The position numbers and the translations under genes were made by a program. Below are positions 36,150 to 64,000 of a stretch of 64,000 nucleotides of DNA, one piece after another (the first letter of the stretch is position 1; each line of letters begins with the position of its first letter). The notes under the pieces are model-generated. The model was not told where the DNA came from. It made no database searches and was given only the letters and a program-made list of their open reading frames with translations. Origin of the DNA: a bacterium (lineage in GTDB: Bacteria; Myxococcota_A; Bradymonadia; UBA7976; UBA1532); contig JAUHYW010000059.1 in the NCBI GenBank assembly GCA_030426085.1, forward strand, positions 1 through 64,000, written 5' to 3'.

Positions 36150-39100
36150 ATGACCCGCACGCGGTTCGAGCACCTGCTCACCGTCGCCTGCCTCGCCCTG
36201 CTCGTCACGGGCGTGGGCTGTGATTCGACCGGCGACGATCCGTTCCCTCGCCTGCCCGAGATGGAGGCCCCCGACGAGGACGGGGGCGGCGGATCGGGCG
36301 GTGAGGGTGGCTTCATCGAGGACGCCGGCCCCGACGAGGGCCCCGGCGGATCGGGCGGCGCGGTCGACATGGGCGACCTCGACGGCGGCGATCCGGACGA
36401 GGGCGCAGGCGGCGCGGGCGGCGCGATCGACATGGGCCCCGACGAGGGCGCCGGCGGGGCGGGGGGCATGATCCCGCCGTCGCCGCCCGACTGCACCGGG
36501 GTCGAGTTCCGCCCCTGCGAGACTGTGGCCGGCGCCGGCGGGGCGACCCTGATCCGGGGCACGATCGTCAGCGGCGATCGCCTCATCTGCGACGGCGAGG
36601 TGCTCGTCGATCGGGCGTCGAAGCGCGTCGAGTGCGTCGGCGAGGATTGCAGCGACGACCCGCTCGCCGCCGACGCCAGCGTGATCTGCGCCGACATCGT
36701 GATGCCGGGCATCATCGACCCCCACAACCACATGTCGTACAACACGCTGCCCCCCTGGCGCAGCGACCGGCTCTTCCAGAACCGCGACGAGTGGCGCCCG
36801 ATCATCAACGGCGAGATGTACGGCGCCCGCCCCTCGGGCGGTGATCCGGTCGCCGCCCGCTTCAACGAGGTGCGGCTGCTGCTCGCCGGCACCACCGCGG
36901 TGCACAAGGCCGAGGACACCGACTCGAGCCATGACCTCGTGCGCAACCTCGACCGGGGCGAGGACGCCCACCACCTGCCCTACGAGGACTTCGACTTCTA
37001 CGAGTGCGTCTTCCCGTTCAACAACAGCTGCTCGGGCGCGCCCGACTACCGGGCCGGCAACCGCATCCCGGCCCGGACCTACGCGGCGCACGTCGCCGAG
37101 GGCATCGATCCCGGCAGCCGCAACGAGTTCGTCCGCTTCGACGAGGAGGGGCACCTCGGGGACAAGACCAGCGTCATCCACTGCGTGGCCTGCGAGGGCC
37201 CCGAGCTGAGCCGCATGCGGGCCGAGGGGGCCCACCTCGTGTGGTCGCCCCAGTCGAACCTGGCCTTGTACGGCGAGACGACCCATGTGCCCACCGCGCT
37301 GAACATGGGCCTCACCGTGGCGCTGGGCCCCGACTGGACCCCCTCGGGCACGATGAACCAGCTCGCCGAGATGAAGTGCGCCGAGCACGTCGGCGCGACC
37401 TACTACGACGGCATGGTCGACGCGAAGCGGGTGGTGCGCATGGTCACCGACCACGCGGCGGTGGCGATGGGCGTCGAGGATCTCATCGGGCGGCTCGAGC
37501 CGGGCCTGTTCGCCGACGTGCTGGTGCTCGGCGACGGCGCGCTGGACCGGGTCCATCCCCACGAGGCGATCGTCGCCGCCCAGAACCCCGACGTGCGGGC
37601 GGTCTTCGTCGGCGGCGAGGCGCTCTACGGCGACCCCGACGCGCTGACCCCGGGCAACCAGCGCAACGAACTCTGCGAGCCGCTCGACCTGTGCGGCATG
37701 GCCAAGACCATCTGCCTGCGCACCGAGGCCGGCGAGGGCGACGTCGCCCGCCGCGACGACTGGCCCCGCTTCGATCTGGCCCAGATGGCGGCGTACCTCC
37801 AGGGCGAGATCGATGAGAACCGCCCGCAGGATCTGCCGCCCGAGCTGGAGTACGTCTACCAGCTCTACCCCGCCTTCGAGTGCACCTCGACCTTCGCCTG
37901 CGACATGGGCAACAGCCGGGTCTCGGGTGTGCCCACCGAGCTGGACCTGGACGGCGACGACGTGCCCGACGACGTCGACAACTGCCCGGCGGTCTTCAAC
38001 TTCGGCCAGGGCGACCTCGACGCCGACGGGGCCGGCGACGCGTGCGATGTCTGCCCGTGGTCCGCCGAGATCGACCCCTGCCCGCTGCCCGACGCCAACG
38101 ACGTCGACGCCGATCTGGTGCCCGACACCGACGACAACTGCCCCGGGGCGAGCAACCCCGATCAGCTCGACACCGACGAGGACGGGCAGGGCGACGTGTG
38201 CGACTACTGCCCCGAGCACCCCGACGGCGACGGGCAGGGCTGCCCGGCGACCATCCCCGCGATCAAGCGGGGCGAGCTGCCGCTGTTGCAGGCGGTGGAG
38301 GTCTCGGGGGTGGTGACCGCGGTCGTGCCCGACACCGCGCCGGGCTCGCAGCCGGGCAGCTTCTTCATGGAGACCGCCGAGCGAGATGACCCCGACGCCG
38401 GTCATCAGGGGCTGTACCTCTACCTCGGCGAGCGGGCCGAGGGGGTCGAGATCCCCGCGGTGGGCGACGCGATCACCGTCGTGGGGCAGGTCAACGACTT
38501 CTTCGGGCAGATCCAGCTCTTCGAGGTCACCCGGCTCGACGTCGAGGGCCCCGGGCCGGCGCTGCCGCCGCCCATCGAGGGCACCCCCGCCGAGCTGACC
38601 GCCCGGGGGGCCGAGTTGGAGTCGCAGCGGGTCTGCGTGCGCGGGGTGCGGGTGGTCGATACGGCCCCCGAGCCGGGCCCCGGCGACCGTGAGCCGTTCA
38701 ACGAGTTCGTCGTCGCCGACGATGCGGGCGACATCCGGATCAACGACCTGCTGCACCTCGTCGACCCGCCGCCAGACCTCGGCGACCGCTTCGGCGGCGT
38801 CTGCGGGGTGCTGCGCTTCGGCAACGACGCTTACAAGATCGAGCCCCGGGGGCCCGACGACCTGATCCCCGGCCCGCCGGTGGTCGAGGCCATCGAGCCC
38901 CTGCTGAGCTTCGTGCGGGTCGGCGACGCCGCGGTGCCCGCCGGCGGCCAGCGCGAGCCCCTGACCCTGCACCTGAGCCGGCCGGCCCCGGCCGAGGGCG
39001 CCCCGTTCGAGCTGATCGTCGATCCGCCGGAGGGCTTGCGCTTCGAGGGCCCGGCGATGGTGCCCGCCGACGCCGAGACGGTGGAGCTGACCTTCGTCGC

Positions 39101-40010
39101 CGAGGTGCCGGGGGACTACACCATCAGCGCCCTGACGCCCGACCAGGACGAGGGCGAGGCGGCCACGGCGCTCGTCCGGGCGCTGGCGGTCGACGCGACG
39201 CCCGCCGAGATCCGGATCGAGCCGGACGCGCTGGCGATGGTGGTGGGCGACGTCTACGAGCTCGACGTGCTGCTCGACGTGCCCGCGCCGCCGGACTACC
39301 TCATCGAGCTGAGCGCCGAGCCGGCGGGCGTGGTGCAGCTCTCCGACGTCGAGGTCGAGCTGAACGGCGGCGAGGCCCGGGTGCCGATCACCGTCACCGC
39401 GCTGGCCGCCGGCGAGGTGACCCTGACCGCCCGGGCCGGCGAGCTGGAGGCCGAGGCGGCGATCGTGGTCATCGACGTGCCGCCGGCCCCCCGCATCACC
39501 GAGGTCAACTACGACATGGCGGGGGACGAGACGCTGGAGTTCGTCGAGATCCACAACCCGGGGATCGCGCCGATGCCCCTGGCCGGGGTCACCCTCGAGC
39601 TGGTCAACGGCAACAGCGGCTCGCCCTACGACAGCTACCCGCTCGACGGGGCCGGTGAGGTGCCGCCCGGCGGCTTCCTGGTGGTGGGCGACCCCGGCGT
39701 GGGCGCGCTGCTGCCCCCCGAGGCGCTGTTCATCGGCTGGCAGTCGGCGGGCGGGGAGCACGACATCCAGAACGGCAACCCCGACGGGGTGCGGCTGCTC
39801 GGGCCCGAGGGGCGCATCGACGGGGTGGTCTATTCGTCGGGCACCATGCCCGACGTCACCGACGAGCCCACCGCGCCCGACGACCCCAACGACGCCGCCG
39901 GCGAGAGCATCCAGCGGTGCCCGATGCCCGACGGCCCGTGGGTCCTGCTGCCGATGAGCCCCGGCCTGCCCAGCGACTGCCCGCCCCCGGAGGACGCCGC
40001 CGCCGAGTAG
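36150..40010 (+). CDS. Giant lipoprotein: amidohydrolase + TSP3 + OB-fold + lamin-tail domain
   Basis: 1286 aa from ATG 36150 (CGGAG upstream). Lipobox GVGC (Cys24, Asp at +2), then about 80 residues of Gly/Asp/Glu repeats. Residues about 125-545 form an amidohydrolase barrel: MPGIIDPHNHM with metal ligands His192 and His194, SVIHCVAC (His344), SPQSNLALYG, and the catalytic Asp395 in GPDWTPSG, a layout seen in AtzA/TrzA-like surface amidohydrolases. Then TSP3 calcium repeats (about 597-690), an OB-fold-like block (about 690-870, VSGVVTAVVPD), Ig-like segments, and a lamin-tail domain (about 1113-1235, PRITEVNYDMAGDETLEFVE). Extracellular enzyme, substrate unknown. Confidence 0.85.
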   Translation: MTRTRFEHLLTVACLALLVTGVGCDSTGDDPFPRLPEMEAPDEDGGGGSGGEGGFIEDAGPDEGPGGSGGAVDMGDLDGGDPDEGAGGAGGAIDMGPDEGAGGAGGMIPPSPPDCTGVEFRPCETVAGAGGATLIRGTIVSGDRLICDGEVLVDRASKRVECVGEDCSDDPLAADASVICADIVMPGIIDPHNHMSYNTLPPWRSDRLFQNRDEWRPIINGEMYGARPSGGDPVAARFNEVRLLLAGTTAVHKAEDTDSSHDLVRNLDRGEDAHHLPYEDFDFYECVFPFNNSCSGAPDYRAGNRIPARTYAAHVAEGIDPGSRNEFVRFDEEGHLGDKTSVIHCVACEGPELSRMRAEGAHLVWSPQSNLALYGETTHVPTALNMGLTVALGPDWTPSGTMNQLAEMKCAEHVGATYYDGMVDAKRVVRMVTDHAAVAMGVEDLIGRLEPGLFADVLVLGDGALDRVHPHEAIVAAQNPDVRAVFVGGEALYGDPDALTPGNQRNELCEPLDLCGMAKTICLRTEAGEGDVARRDDWPRFDLAQMAAYLQGEIDENRPQDLPPELEYVYQLYPAFECTSTFACDMGNSRVSGVPTELDLDGDDVPDDVDNCPAVFNFGQGDLDADGAGDACDVCPWSAEIDPCPLPDANDVDADLVPDTDDNCPGASNPDQLDTDEDGQGDVCDYCPEHPDGDGQGCPATIPAIKRGELPLLQAVEVSGVVTAVVPDTAPGSQPGSFFMETAERDDPDAGHQGLYLYLGERAEGVEIPAVGDAITVVGQVNDFFGQIQLFEVTRLDVEGPGPALPPPIEGTPAELTARGAELESQRVCVRGVRVVDTAPEPGPGDREPFNEFVVADDAGDIRINDLLHLVDPPPDLGDRFGGVCGVLRFGNDAYKIEPRGPDDLIPGPPVVEAIEPLLSFVRVGDAAVPAGGQREPLTLHLSRPAPAEGAPFELIVDPPEGLRFEGPAMVPADAETVELTFVAEVPGDYTISALTPDQDEGEAATALVRALAVDATPAEIRIEPDALAMVVGDVYELDVLLDVPAPPDYLIELSAEPAGVVQLSDVEVELNGGEARVPITVTALAAGEVTLTARAGELEAEAAIVVIDVPPAPRITEVNYDMAGDETLEFVEIHNPGIAPMPLAGVTLELVNGNSGSPYDSYPLDGAGEVPPGGFLVVGDPGVGALLPPEALFIGWQSAGGEHDIQNGNPDGVRLLGPEGRIDGVVYSSGTMPDVTDEPTAPDDPNDAAGESIQRCPMPDGPWVLLPMSPGLPSDCPPPEDAAAE

Positions 40011-40075: not shown

Positions 40076-45937
<5,862 letters not shown>

Positions 45938-49003: not shown

Positions 49004-50737
49004 CTACCGGTCGTCGGCGGGCGGGAAGAAGACCCGGGCGAAGTTGCCGCCCATCACCGCCGCCTGCTCGGCGGCGTCGTAGCCCAGCGCGGTCATCGTC
49101 TCCACGACCAGCGCGGTGTAGCGGGGCACCGCGCCCGGCCCTTGGGGGCCGTCGGTGCCGAAGATCGTGCGGTCCACCAGCCCCCGATCGCGGATCGCCT
49201 CGAGCACCCCGGCGAGCTGGTCTTCGCCGGCCTCGGGCTCGGGGATGTCGGCCCCGTCATCGTCGACGAGCAGCGGGCGGCCGAGGGCGCTGATCTCGAG
49301 GAAGACGTTGTCGTAGTCGGCCGCCAGCCGCAGCGCGTTCTCCACCGAGCGGGCGTCGCCCTGGCCGGTGTGCCCCAGCACGAATCGCACCCCGGGGTAG
49401 GACGCGATCACCCCGTCGAGGCCGGCGGGGTCGTAGAACGGCGGCGCGTTGCTCGCCCCGGGGAACGGGGTCAGGCCGGTGTGCAGATAGACCGGCACGT
49501 CGCGCCGGGCGGCGACGTCGTAGACCCCCAGATAGCGGGCATCGTCGAACGCGACGCCCTGGTGGGCGTGGGCCAGCTTGATGCCCACGAACAGCGTCGG
49601 GTGGGCCTCGAAGTAGCCCTCCAGCGCGGCCAGGCGGCGCCCGGCGAGGGCCTCGTCGAGCGCCCCGTCCTCGCCGATGTAGCCGTTGTAGAAGTCGACG
49701 CTGGCCAGCCCCCAGGCCCACGGCAGCCCGTCGGGGGCCACGTTGGCCGGATCGGTCAGCCACGCCTCGAGCTGGCGGTTGGTGGCGTAGCCCGCGCTCT
49801 CCTGGGTGTAGACCGCGAACAGCACCGCGTGATCGGAGCCCGCCCGGTCGGTCTGGGCCCGGATGCCCAGGTGCGGGGCGAAGGGGTCGAGCGTCGTCCC
49901 CGTGATGCCCGGCCGGTAGGCCTGGAGGAAGGGCGGCAGCACCTCGGTGGTGAACCGGGCCCCGCTGTCGGGGATCTGCCCCGGCCGGCCGAAGTGCAGG
50001 TGCATGTCGACCTGCCCGATCGCGGCGGGGTCGATCACCGGCCGCTCACCGCCCGTCGCCCCGGCCGGGGGCTGCATCTCGGGGGCCGTCTGGGCCACCG
50101 TGTAGGCCGGCCAGATCGCCACCTGGGCCGCCACGTCGCCCTCGTAGACGACCGCCGCCCCGGCGGCGTGGAAGTCGATGGCGCCCACCGTCAGCGTCGG
50201 CGCGCCCAGCGCCGCCTCGACCTCGGCCCGGGTGATGCCCGGCCGCACCGGGCCTTCGAATCCGGCCGGGCCGTTGGCCTGCGCCGCGATGACCACCGCC
50301 TCGGGCGCCGGCCCGTCGAGCCGCGGCGAGGCCAGCACGACCTGCATCGGCGGCGCGGCCACGTTGAGCAGCACCGCCCCGTCGGCCCCGAAGCCGGCCG
50401 GCTCCGCGCCGAGCGCCTCGACCATCTCGGCGTAGCTCATGCCCAACAGCACCGGGCCGACGCGCTCGCCGACGACGACCTCGAAGGGCTCGGCAGGGGG
50501 GCCGCCGTCTGTCGGGCTGCCGTCGATCGGCTCAGCGTCCGCCGGATCGCTGTCCGCCGGGCCGCTGTCGGGCATCGGCTGCCCATCGGGCTCCGGCGGG
50601 CGGGCGTCGGGCGACGCGTCGCCGGTGTCCACCGGGGCGGCGTCGGTCGGCGCCTCGGTGGTCTCGTCGTCGCAGCCGGCGAGCGCGGCGAGGGCGACCA
50701 GCAGCATGGCGCGGGCGAGCGGATGGATCGGCGGCAT
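49004..50737 (-). CDS. Lipoprotein amidohydrolase (Amidohydro_2 type) with BamE-like repeats
   Basis: 577 aa from ATG 50737 (GGAG upstream). Lipobox LAGC (Cys22, Asp at +2) and a Pro/Asp-rich spacer to about 82. Residues 83-212 hold two similar units with 'G(M/I)xxxEx(V/M)xALGAx', like BamE/SmpA-type folds. The catalytic barrel starts at VDMHLHFG (His246, His248) and continues with LFVGIKLAHAHQG, VPVYLHTG, VLGHTGQG and the Asp in FGTDGPQG, the ligand set of PF04909-type metal-dependent hydrolases and decarboxylases. Envelope-exposed; substrate unknown. Divergent from the 50986 operon across the palindromes. Confidence 0.87.
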   Translation of the reverse strand: MPPIHPLARAMLLVALAALAGCDDETTEAPTDAAPVDTGDASPDARPPEPDGQPMPDSGPADSDPADAEPIDGSPTDGGPPAEPFEVVVGERVGPVLLGMSYAEMVEALGAEPAGFGADGAVLLNVAAPPMQVVLASPRLDGPAPEAVVIAAQANGPAGFEGPVRPGITRAEVEAALGAPTLTVGAIDFHAAGAAVVYEGDVAAQVAIWPAYTVAQTAPEMQPPAGATGGERPVIDPAAIGQVDMHLHFGRPGQIPDSGARFTTEVLPPFLQAYRPGITGTTLDPFAPHLGIRAQTDRAGSDHAVLFAVYTQESAGYATNRQLEAWLTDPANVAPDGLPWAWGLASVDFYNGYIGEDGALDEALAGRRLAALEGYFEAHPTLFVGIKLAHAHQGVAFDDARYLGVYDVAARRDVPVYLHTGLTPFPGASNAPPFYDPAGLDGVIASYPGVRFVLGHTGQGDARSVENALRLAADYDNVFLEISALGRPLLVDDDGADIPEPEAGEDQLAGVLEAIRDRGLVDRTIFGTDGPQGPGAVPRYTALVVETMTALGYDAAEQAAVMGGNFARVFFPPADDR

Positions 50738-50985: not shown

Positions 50986-51963
50986 ATGACGCGCCGACCC
51001 TCCACTCCGCTCTGGCCCCTGGCCCTGCTGTGCCTCGCCGCGAGCGCCGCCGGGCAGACCGCGCCGGCCGCGGCGGATCCACCGGCCGACCCGGCCGCCG
51101 CGCCCGCCGAAGCCGGCGCCGATCTCGCCCTGCGCCCCTCACCGGCCGCCCTGCGGGCCCTGTGCGAAGACGCCTTCGCCGGGCTCGCCCGCCAGACCGA
51201 GAAGGCCACCCCGGCCGCGATCGTGCCGGCGACGTCGGGCGACGCGCTGGCCGACTTCGTCGTCGACTACCTGCACTGGTGCCTGGGCGACGAGCGGGGG
51301 GTCCGGCTCGTCGAGCGGGCCCGGCTCGACATGCTCCTGCGCGAGCTGGAGACCCAGCGGCTGCTGGGCGCCGAGGACATCACCCGCCGGGTCGCGGCCC
51401 TCGCCGGCGGGGAGAGCGTGCTGGTCGTCGCGGTGCACCCGGTCGACCCCCAGACCCGGGACATCACCCTGCGCGGCAGCCGGGTCGAGGGCGGGGACGT
51501 GCTCTTCGCCGCCGCCCCGGTGCGGGTCGAGGCCCGCGATCTCATCGAGCTGCAGCGGCAGATGGTCGCCCGGGGCAACCGGCTGCTGGCGATGGGCCTG
51601 TCGACGGTGCTGCCCGGCGCGGGGCAGCTCTACAACGACCAGCCGATCAAGGCCGGGCTCTTCCTGGCCGTCGAGCTGGCCCTGGGCGCCGCCGCGCTGG
51701 CCTACCACCTCGAGGGCGCCGGCCACGAGGACGCCTACAACCGCGACCGCCCGGAGGACGTGCCCTATGGCGATCGAGCGGAGTCGGCCTACGAGACCCG
51801 CAACGTGCTCTTGTGGACCCTGCTCGGGGTGCACGTCGCGGGCATCGTCGACGCGGCGATCTTCGGCGGGGTGCCGCCCGACGTCGAGCAGCGCTTCCGC
51901 GACCGCATCGGCGTCGCGCCGATGGGCGACGGCGCGGGCATCTGGTTCGATGGGCGCTTCTGA
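50986..51963 (+). CDS. CsgG/FlgO-like exported protein with C-terminal membrane domain
   Basis: 325 aa from ATG 50986 (GAGG upstream). Signal peptide MTRRPSTPLWPLALLCLAASAAG. Residues about 50-185 have the FlgO/CsgG-like pattern: a conserved alpha/beta unit with VERARLDMLLRELETQRLLG, then ITRRVAALAGGESVLVVAV, and beta strands. Residues about 205-325 resemble DUF5683: STVLPGAGQLYNDQPIKAGLFLAVELALG and a second hydrophobic helix, known in membrane-associated Gram-negative proteins. First gene of an overlapping five-gene operon; its end overlaps the next start by 14 bases. It may organise or secrete the giant lipoproteins, but this is inference. Confidence 0.78.
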   Translation: MTRRPSTPLWPLALLCLAASAAGQTAPAAADPPADPAAAPAEAGADLALRPSPAALRALCEDAFAGLARQTEKATPAAIVPATSGDALADFVVDYLHWCLGDERGVRLVERARLDMLLRELETQRLLGAEDITRRVAALAGGESVLVVAVHPVDPQTRDITLRGSRVEGGDVLFAAAPVRVEARDLIELQRQMVARGNRLLAMGLSTVLPGAGQLYNDQPIKAGLFLAVELALGAAALAYHLEGAGHEDAYNRDRPEDVPYGDRAESAYETRNVLLWTLLGVHVAGIVDAAIFGGVPPDVEQRFRDRIGVAPMGDGAGIWFDGRF

Positions 51964-54900
51964 TCCCACCCTCCGGTGGTCCGCGGCCGCGCTGGCCGCG
52001 CTGGCCGCGCTGGCCGCGCTGGCCGCGCTGGCCGCGCTGGCGCTGGGGGGCTGTGACCCCCGCATCGACCGGGACAACCCCCACGACCCCCTGCCGGCGG
52101 CCATCTCGGGGCGGGCGCTGCGGGTCGCCGTCGACGGCCCCGAGCCCGGCCCGGCGACCGTGCGGCTCATCCGGGGCGACGGCCGGCCCGAGGCGGTGGA
52201 GGACGTGGATCCGGCCTCCGGCGCCTTCACGCTGAGCGTGCCGGCGGGCGCGTACACCCTCACCGCCGAGGCCCCGGGCCACGCCAGCGAGACGCTGGCC
52301 CTCGACGTGGCGAGCGGGCAGGCGATCGACGACGTCTACCTCGAGCTGCTCGACGGGCAGCCGCCGGTCGCGCCCACGCTGACGCTGCCCCCGGGGCCGG
52401 TGAACACCCGCGAGATCGTCGCCCGGGTCGAGCACCCCGAGGCCGGCGCGGGGATCACGATCCGGCTCGCGGGGGACGCCGAGGCGACGGGCGAGGGCGC
52501 CGAGCGCGGGCTGCGGTTGACCGGGGGCGACGGCCTCAAGCGGATCACGGCGGTCGCCGTCGATCGGGCGGGCAACACCTCGTCGGCCGCCTCGGCGACC
52601 ATCGAGCTGGACACCCGGCCGCCCGCCGCGGGCGACTTGCTGCTGGCCGGCGGCGCGTGCGAGGTGCGATCCCGGTTCGTCGACGCCGAGCTGAGTGGGA
52701 CCGACGCCCCGTGGGTCGGCTTCGAGGCCGTGCCCGGCGCCTGCGGCGAGTGCCCCGACGACATCCCCTGCGATCGGGCGAGCGCCCGGGTGAACCGGGT
52801 CGAGCTGGCGCCGACCCCCGGCGCGCAGTGCGTGTGCCGGGTCCTGTGCGACGACGCCGGCAACCGGACCGCGGCGCCGCCGGTCGCGGTGCACCTCGGG
52901 CCCTACGAACCCCGGCCGGTCCCGGTGCTGACCGCGGTCGAGCCCTCGGTCGTGCCGGCGCGGGCGTCGGCGTGCGACGAGGTCGTGGTGCGAGGGGCCG
53001 ATCTGGCCGGCGACACGGTGGTCGACATCGGCCCGTTCACCGCGCTGCCCTGCGCCCGGCGGGCGGGGCTGGACGCCTTCACGCCCTGCGCTGGCGGGCC
53101 CCCGCCCGACGAACCCCCGCCCGACCCGGACGGGTGCGCCGTCGCCGACGTGCCCGACGGCTACGCCACCGCCTGCGTGGTCACGCTGCCGCCCGGGCTG
53201 CTGACGTTCGCCGGCACCTTCCCGGTCCGGCTGCGCACGCCGGCGCCGGTGGAGGGCGGCGCCGGGCTCTCGGCGGACGTGCGCTGGCTGACGCTCGACG
53301 CGCCCCTGCCGCTGATCGATCGGATCGAGCCGCAGGGGGTCGCCCTCGGCCCCGACCGCCCGAGCGCCGTCACGGTGACCCTCGACGCCCACGACCTGAC
53401 CGACAACGTCGAGATCCAGCTCGCCGGGCGGCCGCCGGTCGAGATGACGATCACCCGGGGCGGGCCCGAGCGCCCCGACGCGGCCCGGGTCGAGGCGACG
53501 TTCGACCTGAGCGGGCTCGCGCCCGACGCGGCGGGCGACGTGTCGCTGTTCGTGATCAACGACGACGCCGAGGTCGAGCTGCCGTTCGGCCTGATGCCGG
53601 CGGTCACCGCCTGCGGCCCGGTGTGTCGGATCCCGACCCGGCGCACCCGGCCGTCGGGCCTGCCGGGGCACGTCGCGGTCGAGCTGACCCCGCCCCGGAA
53701 CACCCTGGGCACCGCCCTGAGCCTCGCGGGCGCCTCGTCGTGGACCGTGCTCGACGCCGACGGCGTGCCGCTGATGCGCAGCGCCACCGCCCACGGGCTG
53801 GCAGGGCTGCGGCTGCCGGGGCCTCAGCCGGCGGCCCGGCTGATCGCCGACGTGCCGGCCCACGCGGGCGGGCTGATCGAGGTGACCGCCGGGCAGGCGT
53901 TCCCCGAGCCGCCCGACCTGTGTCCCCGGGCTCGCGTCGCGCCGCAGCACGGCCCGGCGTCGGCCGCGCTGTTCGCCGACCTCGACCTGGACGGCGGGCT
54001 CGAGGGGATCATGGCCCACCCCGAGACCGGCCAGCTCACCGTGGACGGGCAGGTGATCCAGGTCGGGGGCAGCCCCTCGGCGCTGGCGGTCGCCGATCTG
54101 AACGGGGACGGCTGGCCCGACGTGCTCGTCGGCGACCCGGCGAGCCGGACCATCACCGCCCGCCCCGGGCTGGGCGACGCCGACCTCGGGCCGCCGGTGC
54201 CGCTGCCGGCGGTCGATCTGGCCGGGCCGGTCGCCGCGCTGACGGTCACCGACGTCGACGGCGACCGCCGCCCGGACGTGCTCGCCGGCTTCGACGGCCC
54301 CGGCGGGGGGCTGGCCCGGTGGATCGTCGCCGCCGACGGCCGGATCCTGCCGCCGACGGTCATCGTCCGCGACGCGCCGGTCTCGATGATCGCCGCCCGC
54401 TCCACCACCCGCCCCGGCCTGCCGGACGTGATCTTCGGCGGCCCCGGCGGGCTCTCGGTGTGGACCGCCGGCGGCCCGCCCCGGCCGCTGCTCGACGGGC
54501 AACCGGACCTCGGCAGCGCCTGGGTCGAGGTCCTCGGCCGCGACCGCCTGGGCACCGTGCGCCTGCTGGGCAGCGACGCGGCCGGGATCTGGACCCTCAC
54601 CCGCCGGCCGGGCGCCGGCTGGGTGCTCGACGGCGAGCGGATACCGGTGAGCCCCGCGTTCCGCAGCCTCGGGGCCTACGACACCGACGGCGACGGCCAG
54701 CCGGAGGTCTTCGGGGTCGACGAGGTGCTCCAGGAAGGGCTGGGCGAGATCCGCCACGCGCTGCTGACCGTGCACCCGGGCCGCCCGGAGCGCCCGGTCT
54801 CGACCGTGGGCTTCGCCGACGGCACACTCCTGGAAGGCCCGGAGCCGACCCCCTGGCCGCCGCGCGCCGTGGCCTTGTACCGGACCGCCGACGACGTGCA

Positions 54901-56581
54901 CGGCCGGGCCCTCGGCCGCGACGGCGCGCCGCGCGCCCTCGAGCCCTGCGTCGGCGTCGAGCCCGGCCCGCAGGGCGTCCCGCCGACCCCGGGGCTGCCG
55001 CCGGTGAGCGAGGGGCGCGCGGCCTGGCTGGACGTCGACGGCGACGGCTTCGCCGATCTGATCGCGCAGGGCGACGACGGGCTCGTGACCGCGTTCGGCC
55101 CGTGCGACGCCCGGGTCGTCTGCGAGCCGGCGCTCGCCGGGGAGGGCGCCGCGCTGGCGGTCACCCGGGCGGCCGACGGCAGCCCCGTCGTCGTGATCGG
55201 CGAGGGGCGTCAGGTCCGGATCGGGCCGCTCCGGGGCGACGGCGTGCCCGGCTCGGCGGACGCCGAAGTCGGCGTCGGGGCCCCGGTCCGCGCGGTGCAG
55301 GCGGTCGCCCTCGGCGATGAGCGGCTGGCCGTCGCGGTGACCGACAACCTGATCCACGTCATCGGCCCGGAGGTCGCCAGCGGGCTCCCGCTGCCCGCGC
55401 CGGCCGGTCGGGTGATCACCGCCGACGTGCGCCCCGAGCCCCCCGGCGCGGCCCGGTCCGACGAGATCGTGGCCCGCGTCCCCGAGGCGCTGCTGGTCTG
55501 GGCCCACGACGGCGACCGGTGGCGGGCGCTGGGCGATCCGGCGCCGGTCGGGCCGGCCCTCGACTGGACCCTGGCCGACGTCGACGGCGACGGCCTGCTC
55601 GATCGGGTGGATCTGCTGCTCGACGGCGACGCGCTGGCGATCGCGGTGTATCGGGGCACCGGCGACGCCGCGCTGTTCGAGGCCGCGTCGCTCGCGCCGC
55701 CGATCCGGGTGGACGCCTACGACGACGGCCCGGTGGCCCTGGCCGCCGCCGATCTCAACGTCGACGGCCTGACCGATGTGATCGTCGGCCAGCGCCGGAT
55801 GGGCGCGCTGGTCAGCAACGCGGTGCGGGTCCTGCTCGGCCGGCGCGACGGCGCGCTCGCCCCGGCGGTCTCGGCGTGGCCGCCATGCCTCGTCGAGCTC
55901 GGCGCCCTCGACCCGGCGCTGACCGTCGCCGCCGCGGACGTGACCGGCGACGGGCGGCCGGAGATCGTCGCCACCCTCGACCGCTCGATCTGCGTCGCCG
56001 CCGTGGTCGACGACGGGCCGGTGCAGAGCTGGATCGCCGATCCGGCCCCGCCCGCGCCCGACGCCGATGGCCGGCTGCGGGTCCCGCTGCACCACCCCGC
56101 CGCGTGGTTCGAGCACGCGACCCTGGTCGCGCAGAGCGACGCCCCGATGCTGAGCGGCGCGCTCATCGGGCCCCGCGGCGAGCGGGTCGCGCTGCCGCCG
56201 GTCGATCCGGTCGGCGGCGCGGTGGCCTGGAGCAGCCTCGACGGCGGCCCGCTCGCCGGCCTGATGGGCCGCCAGCCGACGGGCGAGTGGGTCGTGGAGC
56301 TGGAGCCCGGACCCGATGGCCCCCCGGTGACGGCGGTCGAGCTGCTGGTCGGCGTGCGCTGGCAGCGGCCGCGCCACCCGGCGTGCGGGGCGGGCAACGA
56401 CCCCCGGCCCGAGGGGGTCTGCGTCGGCGGGCGGCTGCTCGACCGGGCGCCGGGGCCGGCGGGCGACTGCGACTTCGACGGCGTGCCCGATGTCTCCGAC
56501 CCGTGCCCCGCCCAGGCCCGCTGGCCCGCCGACCCCGACGCGCTCTGCGGGCAGCCGACCCACCGCGATTGCCCGCTGTGA
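51950..56581 (+). CDS. Giant FG-GAP lipoprotein, copy A
   Basis: 1543 aa from ATG 51950, overlapping the upstream gene by 14 bases. The signal peptide core is six AAL units and ends in LGGC (Cys35, Asp at +2), followed by [12 protein letters not shown], a shared N-terminal tag with copy B. Next are a carboxypeptidase-regulatory-like fold ([17 protein letters not shown]), Ig-like segments, and from about residue 660 on many FG-GAP/VCBS calcium motifs ([60 protein letters not shown]) that suggest beta-propellers. The C-terminus carries [15 protein letters not shown]. Surface-exposed sensor or adhesin by architecture; ligand unknown. It ends in GTGA into copy B. Confidence 0.85.
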   Translation: MGASDPTLRWSAAALAALAALAALAALAALALGGCDPRIDRDNPHDPLPAAISGRALRVAVDGPEPGPATVRLIRGDGRPEAVEDVDPASGAFTLSVPAGAYTLTAEAPGHASETLALDVASGQAIDDVYLELLDGQPPVAPTLTLPPGPVNTREIVARVEHPEAGAGITIRLAGDAEATGEGAERGLRLTGGDGLKRITAVAVDRAGNTSSAASATIELDTRPPAAGDLLLAGGACEVRSRFVDAELSGTDAPWVGFEAVPGACGECPDDIPCDRASARVNRVELAPTPGAQCVCRVLCDDAGNRTAAPPVAVHLGPYEPRPVPVLTAVEPSVVPARASACDEVVVRGADLAGDTVVDIGPFTALPCARRAGLDAFTPCAGGPPPDEPPPDPDGCAVADVPDGYATACVVTLPPGLLTFAGTFPVRLRTPAPVEGGAGLSADVRWLTLDAPLPLIDRIEPQGVALGPDRPSAVTVTLDAHDLTDNVEIQLAGRPPVEMTITRGGPERPDAARVEATFDLSGLAPDAAGDVSLFVINDDAEVELPFGLMPAVTACGPVCRIPTRRTRPSGLPGHVAVELTPPRNTLGTALSLAGASSWTVLDADGVPLMRSATAHGLAGLRLPGPQPAARLIADVPAHAGGLIEVTAGQAFPEPPDLCPRARVAPQHGPASAALFADLDLDGGLEGIMAHPETGQLTVDGQVIQVGGSPSALAVADLNGDGWPDVLVGDPASRTITARPGLGDADLGPPVPLPAVDLAGPVAALTVTDVDGDRRPDVLAGFDGPGGGLARWIVAADGRILPPTVIVRDAPVSMIAARSTTRPGLPDVIFGGPGGLSVWTAGGPPRPLLDGQPDLGSAWVEVLGRDRLGTVRLLGSDAAGIWTLTRRPGAGWVLDGERIPVSPAFRSLGAYDTDGDGQPEVFGVDEVLQEGLGEIRHALLTVHPGRPERPVSTVGFADGTLLEGPEPTPWPPRAVALYRTADDVHGRALGRDGAPRALEPCVGVEPGPQGVPPTPGLPPVSEGRAAWLDVDGDGFADLIAQGDDGLVTAFGPCDARVVCEPALAGEGAALAVTRAADGSPVVVIGEGRQVRIGPLRGDGVPGSADAEVGVGAPVRAVQAVALGDERLAVAVTDNLIHVIGPEVASGLPLPAPAGRVITADVRPEPPGAARSDEIVARVPEALLVWAHDGDRWRALGDPAPVGPALDWTLADVDGDGLLDRVDLLLDGDALAIAVYRGTGDAALFEAASLAPPIRVDAYDDGPVALAAADLNVDGLTDVIVGQRRMGALVSNAVRVLLGRRDGALAPAVSAWPPCLVELGALDPALTVAAADVTGDGRPEIVATLDRSICVAAVVDDGPVQSWIADPAPPAPDADGRLRVPLHHPAAWFEHATLVAQSDAPMLSGALIGPRGERVALPPVDPVGGAVAWSSLDGGPLAGLMGRQPTGEWVVELEPGPDGPPVTAVELLVGVRWQRPRHPACGAGNDPRPEGVCVGGRLLDRAPGPAGDCDFDGVPDVSDPCPAQARWPADPDALCGQPTHRDCPL
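51986..52039 (+). repeat. Six perfect 9-bp repeats in a lipoprotein signal peptide
   Basis: gccgcgctg occurs six times without change and codes Ala-Ala-Leu six times, making the whole hydrophobic core of the signal peptide of the copy A lipoprotein. Gain or loss of a unit stays in frame but changes core length. Confidence 0.95.
53367..53437 (+). repeat. 71-bp identical segment shared with copy B (first copy)
   Basis: Identical base for base to 57905-57975 in the paralogous gene, coding the region around [17 protein letters not shown]. It is embedded in sequence that is clearly diverged between the two genes. Confidence 0.9.
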
Positions 56582-59500
56582 GCCGCGCGCGCGCCCGATG
56601 CCTCGCCCTGGCGCTGCCGATCGCCCTGCTCGGCTGTGATCCGCGGATCGACCGGGACAACCCCTTCGATCCCCGATCGGACGACCCCCGGGCGGCGACC
56701 ATCGAGGGGCAGGTGCTCCGGGCCACCGTCGACGGCCCCGCGCCGGGCCCGGCGACGGTGCGGGCCCTCGACGCCGACGGGCGCCTCGCCGACGGGGCCG
56801 ACGTCGATCCGACCTCGGGCGACTTCGCGCTGACGGTGCCCGCCGGGCTCTACACCCTCACCGCCGAGGCCCCGGGCCACGCGGCCGGCGGGCTCACCCT
56901 CGACGTGGCCATCGGCGAGCGGGTGGCGGTCGAACCCATCGTGCTGAGCGACGAGCAGCCGCCGGTCGCGCCGACGCTGTCGCTGCCCCGGGGCCCGGTG
57001 AACACCCCCGAGGTCGTGGCCACCGTCGACCACCCCGAGCCGGGCGTCGCGATCCTGATCCGAACCGGGGGCGGCGTCGAGTCCACGGCGGGCGAGGGGC
57101 TCGATCGCGCGCTCCGGCTCACCGACGGCGACGGGGACAAGACGGTGATCGCGGTGGCGGTGGATCCGGCGGGCAACGTCTCGCCGTCGGCGACGGCCAC
57201 CATCGAGCTGGACACCACCCCGCCGGCCGAAGGCGCGCTGGTTCTGGCCGGCGGGGCCCGCGTGGTGCGCAGCCGGGTGGTCGACGCCGAGATCACGGGC
57301 ACCGACGCCGATCGGATGCGCTTCGAGGCGACGGCCGGCCCGTGCGGAGGCTGCCCCGCGCTCGACTGCGACCGAGCCTTCGCGGCGGTCGACCGGGTCG
57401 AGCTGGACGCCATGCGGGGCGAGCAGTGCGTCTGCTGGGCGCTGTGCGACCTCGCCGGCAACCGGGTGACGCCGCCGCCGGTCTCCATCACGCTCGGGCC
57501 GTACGAGCCCCGCCCGGTGCCCGCGCTGGACGCGGTCGAGCCCGAGATCGTGGTGGCCCGGGTCTCGTCGTCGGCCGACGTCGTCCTGCGCGGCGGGGGC
57601 ATCGCCGACGACACCGTGGCCGACATCGGCGCCTTCGTCTCGCTGCCCTGCGCCCTCGACCGCCCGGCCGGCGGCTGCGTGGACGGCGCGCCCGAGCGCT
57701 GCGCGACGACCTGCACCGTGACCCTGCCCGACGCGCTGCGGCTGGCGAGCGGGCGGCTGCCGGTCCGCCTGCGCACGCCCGATCCGGTCGTCGACGGGGT
57801 GGGCCGCTCGCTGGAGGTCCGCTGGCTGACCCTCACCGCGCCCCGCCCGCTGATCGACCGGGTCGAGCCCCAGGGCGTCGCGCTCGGGCCCGGCCGGCCG
57901 ACGACCGTCACGGTGACCCTCGACGCCCACGACCTGACCGACAACGTCGAGATCCAGCTCGCCGGGCGGCCGCCGACGGCGCTGGACTTCACCCGGGGCT
58001 CGGCCGGGCAGCCCGACGCGGCGCGGATCGTGGCGACGTTCGATCTGGACGGGCTGCCCGCCGACGCCGAGCGGGACGCGATCCTGGCGGTGGGCAACCC
58101 CGGCGGTGATCGGGTCGAGCTGCCGTTCGGCCTGGCGCCCGCGGTCACCCCGTGCCCCCAGGGCGAGGTGTGTCGGATCCCGGTCCGCCGGACGCGGCCG
58201 TCGAGCCTGCCGGGGCACGTCACCGTCGAGCTGACCCCGCCCCGGGGGGTGCCGAGCGCCTCGCTCTCGCTGGGCGGGGCCTCGACCTGGACCGTGCTCG
58301 GTCCCGACGGCACCGCCCTCGCCCGCGGCGCGACGACCCACGCGCTGGCGACGCTGCGGCTGCCCGGCCCTCAGCCGGCGGCCCGGTTGATCGCCGACGT
58401 GCCGGCTCACGCCGGGGGTCTGATCGAGGTGGCGCCGTCGCGGGGCCTTCAGCTCGAGTGGCAGTTGAGCGCGGGCGCGCGCAGCCCGGCCGACCACGGG
58501 CCGGCGGCGGCCGGACTCTTCGCCGATCTCGACCTCGACGGCGCGCTCGAAGGGCTGATGGTGCACCCCGAGACCGGCCGCCTGACGGTGGACGGGGGCC
58601 GCGCGGTCGAGATCGGGGGCAGCCCCTCGGCGCTGGCGGTCGGCGACCTGAACGGGGACGGCTGGCCGGACATCGTCGTCGGCGACCGCGCCGGCCGGGC
58701 GATCACCGCCCACCTCGGGCTGGGGGATACCCGCTTCGGCCCGCCCGTGGTCTTGCCGTCCGCCGCGCTGGCCGGGCCCGTCGCCGCGCTGGCGATCACC
58801 GACGTCGACGGTGACCGCCGACCGGACGTGCTCGCCGGTTTCGACGGCCCCGCCGGGGGCCTGGCCCGCTGGATCGTCGCCGCCGACGGCCGCATCCTGC
58901 CTCCGATGGTGGTCGCCGACGGCGTGCCGGTGTCGTTCGTCGCCCCGCGGCACACCACCCGGCCGGGCCGCCCCGACATCTTCTTCGGCGGGCCCGCCGG
59001 GATCCGGAGCTGGAGCGGGGCCGACGACGCGCCGCCCCGACCTCTGCTGGCGGATGGGCCCGGGCTCGGCAGCCGGTGGGTCGAGGTGATCGGACGCGAC
59101 CAGGCCGGCGTCGTGCGGCTGCTGGGCAGCGATGGCGACGGCGTGTGGACCCTCGCCCGGCGGCCGGGCGCCGACTGGGTCCTGGAAGGCCCGCGGGTGC
59201 TGCCGGGGACCGACTTCAGGGGCCTGGGGGTCTACGACGGCACCGGCCGGGGTCGGCCGGCGGTGCTCGGCGCCGACCTCGGCGCGCCCGACGGGGCGCT
59301 GTGGCTCGTACGGCCCGGCGCCGAGCCGACCCCGGTCTACGCGCCGGGCTACGCCGACCCGCCCCGGGCGCCGCTCGCGGTGCACCTGAACGACCCGGAC
59401 ACGGATCTGAGCGCCTTCGCCCTCGACGGCGACGGCACATGGCACGCCATGTCGAACCTCGTCGCCGGCGTGGACGAGCCCCCGTCGCTCACCCTGGTCT

Positions 59501-61149
59501 GGCCCACGCCGGATCTGCCAACGGTGGTCGGCGGGCGCTCGGCGTGGTTCGACGTCGACGGCGACGGCGTCTCCGATCTGATCGCCCAGGGCGCCGACGG
59601 CCTCGCGACGGCCTTCGGGCCCTGCGAGCCCCGGGTCGTCTGCGCCCCGACGCCCGGCGGTGGCGTGGGCGCCGGCCTCGACCTCATCCGCGCGGCCGAC
59701 GGCGCGCTCACAGCCGCGATCGGGGTGGAGACCGCGGTGCAGATGGGCCCGCTGGGGCCTGACGGGCGCCCCGGGCCGCCCGACATCGCCGTCGACCTCG
59801 GGGCGCCGGTGCGCGCGGTGCAGGCCGTCTCCATCGGCGATGTGCGCCTGGCGGCGGCGATCGCCGACGATCGGATCCACATCGTCGGCCCGGGGCACGC
59901 CGCCGAGCTCGTGGCGCTCGACGGGCGGGGTCGACCCACGGCGCCCGACCGGATCATCGCCGCCGACATCCACCCCGAGGCCCCAGGCGAACCCCGAGCC
60001 GACGAGATCGTGGCCCGGACCGCCGAGGGCCTGACGGCCTGGGCGTACGACGGCGGCGGCTGGCGCGCCCTGGGCGAGGGGATCGCGCTGGCGTCCACCC
60101 TCGCGTGGACTCTGGCCGACATGGACGGCGACGGCCTGCTCGACCGGGTGGAGCTGTCGGCGCGAGGCGGCGAAGGCGGCGACGCGACCCTGGCGGTCGG
60201 GGTCTACCGGGGCACCGGCGGCCCCGACCTGTTCGAGGCCGCGCCCATCGCGCCGCCGGCGCCGGTCGCCGTGGCTGCCCGCGCGCCGGTGGCCCTGGCG
60301 ACGGCCGACGTCAACGTCGACGGCCTGCCCGACGTGCTCGTCGCCCGGGCCACGGCGGGGGTCGGGCCGGCGGACGCGTGGGATGTACGGACGGGTGTGC
60401 TGCTCGGTCGGGGGGACGGCGCGCTCGCCCCGGCGCTGGACGAGCACCCGTGCGATGTCGTGGCCGAGCCCGATGGTGGGACCCCGCCGATGACCGTCGC
60501 CGGCGAGGATCTGACCGGCGACGGCCGGCCGGAGATCGTCGTCACCCTCGGCCGCGCGGTGTGCAGCGGAGCGCTGGTCGACGATGCGGCGGTCCAGAAC
60601 TGGGTCGCCGAGCTCGATCCACCGCCCGACGCCGACGGCGGGCTGCGGGTCCCTCTGCGTCTGCCCGCCGCCTGGTACCGGGACGCGACCCTGGTCGCGC
60701 AGGTCGACGGCCCCTCGCCCGCGCTCAGCGGGTCGTTGATCGGGCCCCGGGGTGACCGAGTCGAGCTGCCGCCGAACGACGCGGCGGGCGGCGCCGCGGT
60801 CTGGACGAGCCTCGACGGGGGCCCGCTGGCCGGTGTGATGGGCCGTCAGCCGGGCGGCGAGTGGCTCGTGGAGCTGGATCCCGGCCCCGGCGGATCCCCG
60901 GTGACGGCGGTGGAGCTGCTGGTCGGCGCGCGCTGGAGCCGCCCGTCCCACCCCGAGTGTTGGCGCGACGCCCACTGGCTGGGCGCCTGCGCCGGCGGCC
61001 GCCTGCCCGACCGGGCCCCCGGGCCGGCGGGCGACTGCGACTTCGACGGCGTGCCCGACATCGCCGACCCGTGCCCCGCCGAGGCCCGCTGGCCCCCTGA
61101 TCCCGAGGCCGCTTGCGGCCCGCCGACCCACCCGGAGTGTGCGCCATGA
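56578..61149 (+). CDS. Giant FG-GAP lipoprotein, copy B
   Basis: 1523 aa from GTG 56578, which overlaps the TGA of copy A (GTGA). Signal [20 protein letters not shown] (Cys20, Asp at +2) and the shared tag [12 protein letters not shown]. It is colinear with copy A: regulatory-like fold, Ig-like segments with paired Cys ([11 protein letters not shown]), FG-GAP/VCBS repeats ([44 protein letters not shown]), and the Cys-rich end [15 protein letters not shown]. The two differ in the signal peptide and many loops, so they are diverged paralogues, probably not recent copies. It ends in ATGA into the kinase gene. Likely co-displayed with copy A. Confidence 0.87.
57905..57975 (+). repeat. 71-bp identical segment shared with copy A (second copy)
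   Basis: Matches 53367-53437 exactly; see that entry. The flanks diverge immediately on both sides. Confidence 0.9.
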
Positions 61150-62720
61150 GCCAGGACGGCGAGCGGGAGGACGGGCCCGGCGCGCCCGACGACGTCACGG
61201 GCAGCGCCTCGGACGGCGGGCGCTCCAGCGGCGACTCGGGCAGCGGCTCCGGCGGCGACTCGGGCAGCGGCTCCAGCGGCGACTCGGGCAGCGGCTCCAG
61301 CGGCAGTTCGACCGCCACCGACCCCCTCATCGGCCGGGTCGTCGCCGAGCGCTACCGCATCGACGGGCTGCTCGGGCGGGGCGGCATGGGCGCCGTCTAC
61401 CGGGCCCGCCAGCTCGGCATCGACCGCGACGTCGCCTTCAAGGTGCTGCGCAACGACCTGGGCAAGCCCTCCGAGATCCGCCGCTTCGAGGCCGAGGCCC
61501 GCATCATCGCCCGGCTGCGCCACCCCCACACCGTGCGGCTCATCGACTTCGGCACCCTCGACGACGACCTCTATCTGGTGCTCGAGCTGGTCGGCGGCAC
61601 ATCGCTCAAGGCCCGCATCCGCAACGGCCTCGAGCCGGCCCTGGCCCTCGAGCTGTGCGCCCAGGTCGCCGACGCGCTCACCGAGGCCCACGGGCTGGGC
61701 ATCGTGCACCGCGACCTCAAGCCGGCCAACATCCTCGTCGAGCCCATCGGCGATCGCGACGTCGCCCGCATCCTCGACTTCGGGGTGGCCCACGTCTCCG
61801 ACGGGGCGACGCTGACCCGCAACGGCGCGCTGGTCGGCACCCCGGCCTACATGGCGCCGGAGCAGGTCCGATCGGCGCCCATCTCGCCGGCCACCGACCT
61901 CTACGCCCTGGGGGTGACGCTCTTCGAGGCGCTGACCGGCATCCGCCCGTTCCGGGCCGAGGGCACCTACGCGCTCTTGATGAAGCACCTCGAGGCCGAG
62001 CCGCTGCCGCTCGAGCCGCTGCTGCCCGCCGCGCCCCCCTGGCCCGAGATCGCCACGCTGGTGCGGGCGCTGCTGGCCAAGGACCCCGCCGACCGCCCGC
62101 CGGGTGCGGGGGTGGTGCGCGACCGGCTGCGGGCCCTGTCGTCCCGCCTGCCCCGCTTCGCCCCGGCGTCGGCCGATCGCACGCTGACCCCGCCGCCCGA
62201 CGAGACCGGCAGCCACGCGCCGACCGGGCCTTCGGACATCTCGGGCTTCGAAGAGACCGCCGACTCCGCCGCCCGGGCCGTCGATCGCACCGCGCGGGGG
62301 CCCGGCGATCCCACCGAGAAGGCCACCGGCTCGCCGACGGTGAAGGCCGCCGGCGAGCCGACCGTGCAGGCCGCCGGTGAGCCGACCGTGCAGGCCGCCG
62401 GCTCGCCGACCGTGCAGGCCGCCGGCGAGCCGACCGTCACGGCGCCCGGTCCCCGCGGGCGGCTCGTCGTCGCCGGGATCCTCGTGGCCGGGCTGGCGCT
62501 GATCGTGAGCTGGACCCTCGTTACGCGCGTCCTGGCGCCCGGCGCGCCCGCGCCGCCCCCCGACGCCGCCCGGGCCGCCGCCGCCCCCGTCGACGGCGCC
62601 ATACCCGACGCCGCGCCCGACGCCGCTCCACCCGACGCCACGCCCCCGCCGGCCCCTGACGCCGCCCGGGCCGGCCCACCCCCCGACGCCGAGGCCCCCG
62701 ATGGTCGAATCACGCTGTAG
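61146..62720 (+). CDS. Transmembrane Ser/Thr kinase of the giant-lipoprotein operon
   Basis: 524 aa from ATG 61146, overlapping the upstream stop (ATGA). Residues 20-57 are Ser/Gly/Asp repeats ahead of the kinase, an unusual place. Kinase 63-330: GRGGMG (77-82), Lys99 in [11 protein letters not shown] (Asp190), DFG (211-213), APEQ (237-240). Then come a linker with five 8-residue units (AAGEPTVQ type, 392-431), one membrane helix (about 440-460, [19 protein letters not shown]), and a short Pro/Ala/Asp-rich periplasmic tail without a folded sensor domain. It may depend on the neighbouring lipoproteins or CsgG-like proteins for input. Catalytic residues intact. Confidence 0.92.
61224..61295 (+). 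repeat. Three 24-bp units coding S(S/G)GDSGSG
   Basis: Near-perfect 24-bp tandem repeats (tccagcggcgactcgggcag core) with a partial fourth, coding a Ser/Gly-rich N-terminal tail on the kinase. In-frame unit changes would keep the frame. Confidence 0.9.
62319..62438 (+). repeat. Five 24-bp units coding (K/Q)A(A/T)G(E/S)PTV
   Basis: Five tandem 24-bp units between the kinase domain and the membrane helix. Each unit ends in Pro-Thr-Val, giving five evenly spaced Thr that could be autophosphorylation sites. Confidence 0.9.
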
Positions 62721-64000
62721 ACCGCATCCGCTCGTGCCGCTGGCGCTGCTGCTCGCGCTGCCCCCGCTCACCGCCCGGGCCGACGGGCCGGACCTGCCGC
62801 TGCACGTCGCCTCGCTGGTCGAGCTGACCGTGGACGACGCCCCCGCCGACAGCGCCCGGGTCGAGGGCGCGTTCGGCGAGGCCCTGACCGCCGCCGGCTT
62901 CACCCGGATCTCGGCCGCCGCCGCCGGCATCCCCGACGCCGCCGCCGCCGAGAAGGGCGCCGGGCACCCGGCCGCCGATCTGGTCGTCGTGGCCCGCGTC
63001 GAGTCCCGCGAGCTCGCCGCGGGCATCGGCGGGACCCGGCTGGTGCGCTACGAGGCCTCGGCCGACGCCCGGGTGCTGGTCACCGAGACCGGCGAGCTGC
63101 TGGGCACCCTCACCGCCGAGGGCCCCGGCATCGACGTCGACCCCGCCTCGGCCGCCCGCATCGCCGGGGCCCACGCCGCCGAGGCGCTGGCGAAGCGGCT
63201 CGTCGAGCGCCTGCCGGCCCTGGCCGCCGCGCCCCGGGCGGTCGAGCTGCGGATCGCCGGCCTGCCCGACGGCGCCGAGGCCGACCGCGTCGCCGGCTTC
63301 TTCGCCGAGCACCCCGCCATCGAGGCGGCCCGGGTGCTCTCCCGCGAGGGCGCGGGCGAGGCGGCGCGGGCGGTGATGCGGCTGACGGTGCGCGGCCTCT
63401 CCGCGGCCGACATCGCCCGCCACATCGAAGAGACCGCCGGCCTGGGCCTGCGGGTCGAGAGCCACACCCTGCGCCGGGTGCACGCCGCCTTCGACCCCGC
63501 CCGCCGCCTGCGGCTCACCGTCGCCGTCGCCCCGCTGGTCAACGCCACCGGCATCGCGGCCGAGGATCGCATGGTCGCCCCGCTCACCCGGGTCCTGCGC
63601 AGCGCGCTCGCCGGCGCCCCGGCCATCGCCGTCGGCGCCGACGACCCCCCGTTCACCGTGCGGGGCACCCTGCGCTACTCGGGCGACTACGACGTCACCA
63701 TCGCCCTGCGGCTCATCGGCCCCGACGGCGCGGTCGTCGCCACCCGCACCGTCACCGGCCCCGGCAAGCGCTTCAGCCGCACGGTGCGCAAGGCGGCCCG
63801 GGCGCTGGGCCGGGACGGGCTGGCCAAGGCCCACGCCGACGCCGACCTGCGGCGCGTCGCCGGCCTGCCCCTGCGCCCGCCCGCGGCGCTCATCGCCGCC
63901 CCGGCGCCGGTGCTCGAAGGCCTGGACATCCGCCCGGCGCACATCGACACGCCGCTCATCGCCGAGGTCCGGTTGGCCCGCGCGCCGGGGGACGGGCGCT
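62701..64000 (+). CDS. Exported CsgG/FlgT-like protein, partial
   Basis: It starts at ATG 62701, inside the last 20 bases of the kinase gene, and is open to the right edge (433 codons, no stop). Signal peptide [21 protein letters not shown]. Residues 25-175 have the FlgT/CsgG-like pattern of outer-membrane-associated proteins: [15 protein letters not shown], a [21 protein letters not shown] block, and [14 protein letters not shown] second beta-rich unit (about 180-255, [17 protein letters not shown]) and a third repeating the first pattern (about 265-390, [16 protein letters not shown]) follow. By its junction it is translationally coupled to the kinase. Function unknown; assembly or secretion partner is a guess. 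Confidence 0.75.

Follow-up and report, generated by a model that had tools for sequence, protein, structure and literature searches.

How lipoproteins come to be displayed at the surface of Gram-negative bacteria outside Bacteroidota and Neisseria is largely an open question. In Bacteroidota the lipoprotein export signal (LES) takes the form K-(D/E)2 or Q-A-(D/E)2 (PMC5080379). Here we examine five genes, g1 to g5, of a member of the Myxococcota (class Bradymonadia; assembly GCA_030426085.1, genome of 10.1 Mb, G000 in our numbering), and by the window we mean the whole stretch analysed, bases 1-64000 of the 67,864-base contig JAUHYW010000059.1 (G000:C143). Two of these genes encode giant lipoproteins with a short tag right after the acylated cysteine, C-x6/7-[NH]P[YFLH]DP, and the gene before them encodes a membrane protein of the DUF5683 type (PF18935), a family of no known function. 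The tag is like the LES in being a short motif just past the acylated cysteine that is common to large lipoproteins; it differs in that [NH]PxDP starts 7-8 residues past the cysteine, in occurring in Myxococcota and in having a genetically linked partner, and the surface exposure of its bearers is here presumed. The comparison of related loci shows that the conserved core is a two-gene unit, in which the DUF5683 membrane protein is encoded directly 5' of a tagged lipoprotein.

A two-gene unit of membrane protein and tagged lipoprotein

Full-length homologues of g1, collected with a profile (A1) built from its relatives, occur mainly in two families of this order, and genes around them were called by a codon-usage script or, for low-GC (guanine plus cytosine) loci, by longest open frame. 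In 17 of the 29 cases the gene directly after the g1-family member encodes a tagged lipoprotein, counted as such when its N-terminus read C-x6/7-[NH]P[YFLH]D[PS], the two genes being -46 to +50 bp apart and for the most part -4; at two further loci the tagged lipoprotein lies one gene on, with a CsgG protein between. The passengers of the tagged lipoproteins vary, with FG-GAP, TSP3, pentapeptide and carboxypeptidase-regulatory domains among them, and the tag persists. On the g1 tree there are 2 label changes vs 9.5 in shuffles, and g1 of the window groups with its homologue on contig C77 of the genus mate G001 (support 94/85, long branches). There the g1 homologue is followed by a tagged lipoprotein of 2,979 residues and then by two genes that look topoisomerase-like by inspection, and neither a kinase nor g5 is present; this lipoprotein has no BLAST similarity to g2 or g3, and the locus has the same partner and tag with a different cargo. 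A second pair of the window's genome, at C92, is syntenic with G001:C26.

The original prediction had treated the five genes as one system, and that idea is not supported by the synteny comparison, in which g1 and lipoprotein pairs are regularly found without the kinase or g5. Among the 17 cis pairs, g4 and g5 adjoin that of the window alone and are missing from the sister locus (L071/L087); a conserved five-gene system was rejected, g4 and g5 being absent at every other homologous locus examined. The accompanying suggestion that two proteins resembling assembly factors are tied to the lipoproteins holds for g1, whose linkage is conserved in many relatives, and is not supported for g5. At three loci (L134, L136 and L137; G013:C113, G014:C3 and G015:C14) a g1-like gene and a short tagged lipoprotein (138-155 residues) are found two genes from a flagellin gene. 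The FlgO-like protein has a fixed flagellar neighbourhood in all three genomes of family f2.

Linkage also extends to other lineages, where tagged lipoproteins were encoded by 8 of 116 genes adjoining a DUF5683 gene vs 0 of 400 genes further off (Fisher p=5e-6; 60 loci retrieved with the g1 profile and selected through a short peptide pattern, with simple longest-open-reading-frame gene calls). The linked loci come from a metagenome-assembled genome (MAG) of Spirochaetes (L164), from deltaproteobacterial MAGs (L138, L180) and from three others (L169, L188, L201) which show a DUF5683-lipoprotein-DUF5683-lipoprotein alternation and may be mutually related; the labels of MAG records can be wrong. 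The FlgO/LpoB domain of g1 is not found in all of these linked DUF5683 proteins. A literature search returned nothing on bacterial DUF5683 or its link to lipoproteins, the sole DUF5683 paper that it found dealing with nematode receptors.

The tag, its bearers and the fold of g1

Within 43 distinct lipoproteins the distance from the cysteine to the N or H of the tag is 6 residues in 34, 7 in eight and 8 in one, the search having constrained it to 5-8. Conservation is highest at the second, fourth and fifth positions of the tag (P, D, P), an invariance that is partly by construction, since the search pattern demanded or favoured these residues. Preferences are also seen outside that pattern: counting the N/H as 0, V/I/L is preferred at -4, A/P at -2, T/S at +6, P at +7 and Q at +11. 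At the DNA level Cys-x6-NP[YF]DP was matched 37 times in 15 genomes of the order vs 14 times in 269 others, and a reversed-pattern control gave 7 matches over all genomes. No title among the eight NPxDP matches listed in a literature search concerns such a motif. In the window's genome the only true lipoproteins with NPxDP are g2, g3 and one on contig C103.

The two lipoproteins of the window are tandem paralogues, about 60% identical along their length and with a common build of lipobox (ALGGC in g2, LLGC in g3), carboxypeptidase-regulatory-like (CarboxypepD_reg-like) head, Ig-like and FG-GAP repeats (FG-GAP E 9e-21 and 4e-13, respectively) and a TSP3-like motif. The third, NPYDP-bearing lipoprotein on C103 (L006:7468-12183) is again a giant FG-GAP protein, of 1,571 residues, and no g1 gene adjoins it, its upstream neighbour being interrupted by the contig end. 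Homologues of the middle of g2 are mostly standalone giant lipoproteins, with no g1 or g5 gene adjoining and no consistent kinase.

The protein g1 was modelled by AlphaFold with a mean pLDDT (predicted local distance difference test) of 75, mostly above 90 in the membrane part, as an alpha/beta domain and two long helices. Structural matches of the domain model were LpoB (Z 10.2 over 127 residues, root-mean-square deviation 4.2), PelC (8.2) and FlgT (7.2), as well as TolB and GNA1162, and the modelled periplasmic domain thus shows the CsgG/FlgO/FlgT/LpoB/TolB-N/PelC fold of known outer-membrane accessory and ring proteins. It differs from those proteins in ending in a DUF5683 hairpin, in being no lipoprotein (no lipobox was seen, and the C-terminus consists of the two membrane helices) and in being paired with a large lipoprotein. 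In a Pfam search g1 itself had no CsgG match at E<=1; its relatives exceed the Pfam FlgO and CsgG cut-offs, three of them (L082_8, L074_7 and L071_1) passing that of CsgG on about one third to one half of the domain. The DUF5683 match of g1 (E 2e-4, 21.9 bits) lies below the 26.7-bit cut-off, which is exceeded in relatives (L074_7, 29.7 bits; L127_4, 27.3; the homologue in the L138 genome, 40.6). Typical of the family are the two membrane helices and the core S-x3-PG-x-GQ-x-Y, the columns of which are invariant in alignment A1, and what differs here is the linkage to a tagged lipoprotein. A divergent g1-like gene of the same genome (L127, G000:C44, about 139,900-144,500) overlaps a gene of 633 codons in an operon with TPR-like proteins, and the product of the latter has no Pfam match and resembles an FHA protein with a TonB/AgmX-like C-terminus.

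A proposed role for g1 and competing explanations

The explanation that we favour as a whole, at about even chances, is that g1 is a dedicated inner-membrane or periplasmic partner for the handling and display of tagged lipoproteins. The DUF5683 hairpin would anchor g1 in the inner membrane, and its periplasmic domain may recognise the lipoprotein near the tag and steer it to the outer membrane for display. There the long variable part, which in this case belongs to two FG-GAP propeller proteins, could act as a surface for adhesion or binding. In the window, the lipoprotein gene would have been duplicated in tandem, and the kinase and g5 would have joined the transcript; these two look like local additions to it and, as local accessories, may regulate dosage or display. 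Such a role would give DUF5683 a testable function, founded on a conserved tag and a linked membrane family, and would offer a candidate route by which Myxococcota display giant adhesin-like lipoproteins. A broader version, in which DUF5683 proteins act as cognate receptors or escorts for an undescribed sorting signal, C-x6/7-[NH]PxDP, within a cross-phylum display system whose cargos have freely diversified, is put forward tentatively and strikes us as rather doubtful.

Several observations weigh against such a partnership. No tagged lipoprotein was found near 10 of the 29 g1-family genes, many tagged lipoproteins are standalone (for example at L035, L038 and L042), so cis pairing is not obligatory, and most DUF5683 genes of Calditrichota, Ignavibacteria and Fermentibacteria have no tagged-lipoprotein neighbour. 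A linker, or a plain marker of the lineage, is another possible reading of the tag. Neither LpoB nor TolB, proteins of the same fold as the g1 domain, is known to sort lipoproteins.

The original prediction had offered a sensor relay, and in its present form the lipoproteins would bind a ligand outside, g1 would transmit across the periplasm and g4 would signal inside. The kinase is likely co-transcribed, given the overlaps, and has a transmembrane helix but no sensor domain. Its catalytic domain is intact (Pkinase E 5e-47; GxGxxG, VAx-type and APE motifs, with a low-complexity tail of about 60 residues), it had no PASTA match in Pfam, and it scored 258.6 of the 450 bits required for a PASTA kinase. 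It is thus like the PknB-type Ser/Thr kinases of Myxococcota in its kinase domain and single transmembrane helix, and unlike them in lacking PASTA or another sensor domain and in not being conserved with lipoproteins. The overlap of g3 and g4 implies co-expression and nothing beyond. Some DUF5683 proteins may nevertheless be linked to kinases, because two f6 genomes of the class (L090, L091) encode a kinase with a PEGA-like tail, a DUF5683-like protein and an FHA/sigma54-activator-like protein in a row; these DUF5683-like proteins, however, have no FlgO/LpoB domain, and no tagged lipoprotein adjoins them. No kinase was seen at any other g1 and lipoprotein locus, the sister locus included. Kinases number at least 152 in the window's genome, about 2% of its genes if each gene takes up about 1.3 kb, so that the chance of one falling among three other partner genes by coincidence is roughly 6%. 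The relay is not borne out, and we consider it improbable.

Slightly less probable still is a coupling to the cell wall, in which an LpoB-like g1 activates or positions peptidoglycan synthesis, or anchors the lipoproteins to the wall, and does not sort them. LpoB is the best structural match of g1, and a second version of g1 has an N-terminal domain that is AMIN-like by inspection (L126_8, L085_3). However, g1 has membrane helices, whereas LpoB, a lipoprotein of the outer membrane, has a disordered linker; penicillin-binding-protein genes were not noticed adjoining these loci, and the fold is also that of PelC, TolB, FlgT and CsgG.

Comparably small odds attach to a curli-like secretion, in which a CsgG-type protein would export the tagged proteins through a pore, with g1 and g5 as accessory ring parts. 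Eight genomes, each of which has tagged lipoproteins, encode a CsgG/FlgT_C protein that strongly matches a further profile (A3); its gene adjoins the g1 homologue in 5 of them (Pfam CsgG E 9e-22), and the profile matches solved CsgG sequences. The likeness to curli export lies in this adjacency. It differs in that the window's genome and the genus mate yielded no CsgG protein of the A3 type, that the cargos are large, lipidated, multi-domain proteins, unlike the small unfolded CsgA, and that no csgA, csgB, csgE or csgF was noticed by inspection around any pair, the neighbours not having been searched with csg profiles. Within the partner role favoured here, the CsgG/FlgT_C protein could be an outer-membrane exit serving many tagged lipoproteins in trans, and the 8-9 tagged lipoproteins per genome of G003 and G010, many of them standalone, would fit such a shared export partner. 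Mere co-transcription, in which genes of a dense, GC-rich genome overlap without sharing a function, would suit g4 and g5, which are not conserved in this context, but for g1 and g2 it is disfavoured by an adjacency that recurs in two families and in other lineages (p=5e-6), and as an account of the locus it is very unlikely.

The locus and its surroundings

The features of the locus are collected below.

Table 1. Features of the g1-g5 locus, with positions in the window and the overlap of each gene with the one before it.
Feature	Position	Strand	Description	Junction with preceding gene
g1	50986..51963	+	325 residues; N-terminal hydrophobic signal-like segment; LpoB/FlgO/CsgG/TolB-N-fold domain (residues ~50-190, modelled); DUF5683 two-helix membrane part (residues ~205-297)	
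g1 DUF5683 segment	51592..51876	+	S-x3-PG-x-GQ-x-Y motif; membrane helices at residues 220-242 and 274-297; from Pfam, alignment A1 and hydropathy	
g2	51950..56581	+	1,543-residue FG-GAP lipoprotein; lipidated Cys35; CarboxypepD_reg-like head; Ig-like and FG-GAP repeats (Ca-binding DxDxDG motifs); C-terminal TSP3-like motif	14 bp (g2 ATG 51950, g1 stop 51963)
g2 N-terminal tag	52052..52090	+	13 residues immediately after the lipobox	
g3	56578..61149	+	1,523-residue tandem paralogue of g2	4 bp, GTGA (g3 GTG 56578, g2 stop 56581)
g3 N-terminal tag	56635..56673	+	13 residues immediately after the lipobox	
g4	61146..62720	+	524-residue Ser/Thr kinase, catalytic motifs intact; Ser/Gly-rich N-terminus; PTV-repeat linker; one transmembrane helix (residues ~437-465); Pro/Ala/Asp-rich tail	4 bp, ATGA (g4 ATG 61146, g3 stop 61149)
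g5	62701..64000, on to contig base 64224 (224 bp past the window)	+	507-residue secreted protein	20 bp (g5 ATG 62701, g4 stop 62720)

All five genes are open and coding-like, with 94-98% GC at codon position 3 and the lowest value of each at position 2. Antisense frames are equally long, owing to a GC content of 78%, and the Pfam matches fall on the + strand proteins. The earlier description of five overlapping genes, with two giant FG-GAP lipoproteins and a Ser/Thr kinase nearly without a sensor, is therefore upheld by these junctions and frames, by the lipoboxes and FG-GAP matches of g2 and g3, and by the intact motifs, single transmembrane helix and lack of a recognisable sensor in g4. Its two CsgG/FlgT-like proteins stand in part: g1 is CsgG/FlgO-like and has in addition the DUF5683 part, which that description had left unnamed, and the likeness of g5 comes from a low-confidence model (mean pLDDT 43), in which residues 33-175 resemble PelC/CsgG/GNA1162/FlgT at E ~1e-4 (FlgT E 3e-4). 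No Pfam match was obtained for g5. Of 379 genomes in the phylum sample only 6, that of the window included, have a match to it, and its one match elsewhere in the class lies away from any tagged lipoprotein. In G001:C77 a FlgT-like-looking protein of 555 residues (L071_2; L071:9958-11625, - strand) is encoded upstream of the g1 homologue with an 11 bp overlap. It has no Pfam match, neither it nor g5 has a PDB sequence match, and g5 was rejected as its counterpart for want of sequence similarity.

A promoter and terminator scan 5' of g1 found nothing, and 3' of g5 lie unrelated genes for a GFA-like and a Nudix-like protein (by inspection). Near the operon the window encodes two lipoprotein-like amidohydrolases (36150-40010, + strand; 49004-50737, - strand), one of which is fused to TSP3 and lamin-tail domains, and a hybrid protein of 1,944 residues (40103-45937, + strand) that joins a Ser/Thr kinase with AAA, GAF, histidine kinase and receiver domains. 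At the end of the contig a TSP3-repeat protein with a MYXO-CTERM-like C-terminus is encoded on the - strand (contig bases 66,813-67,862; L005:6813-7862).

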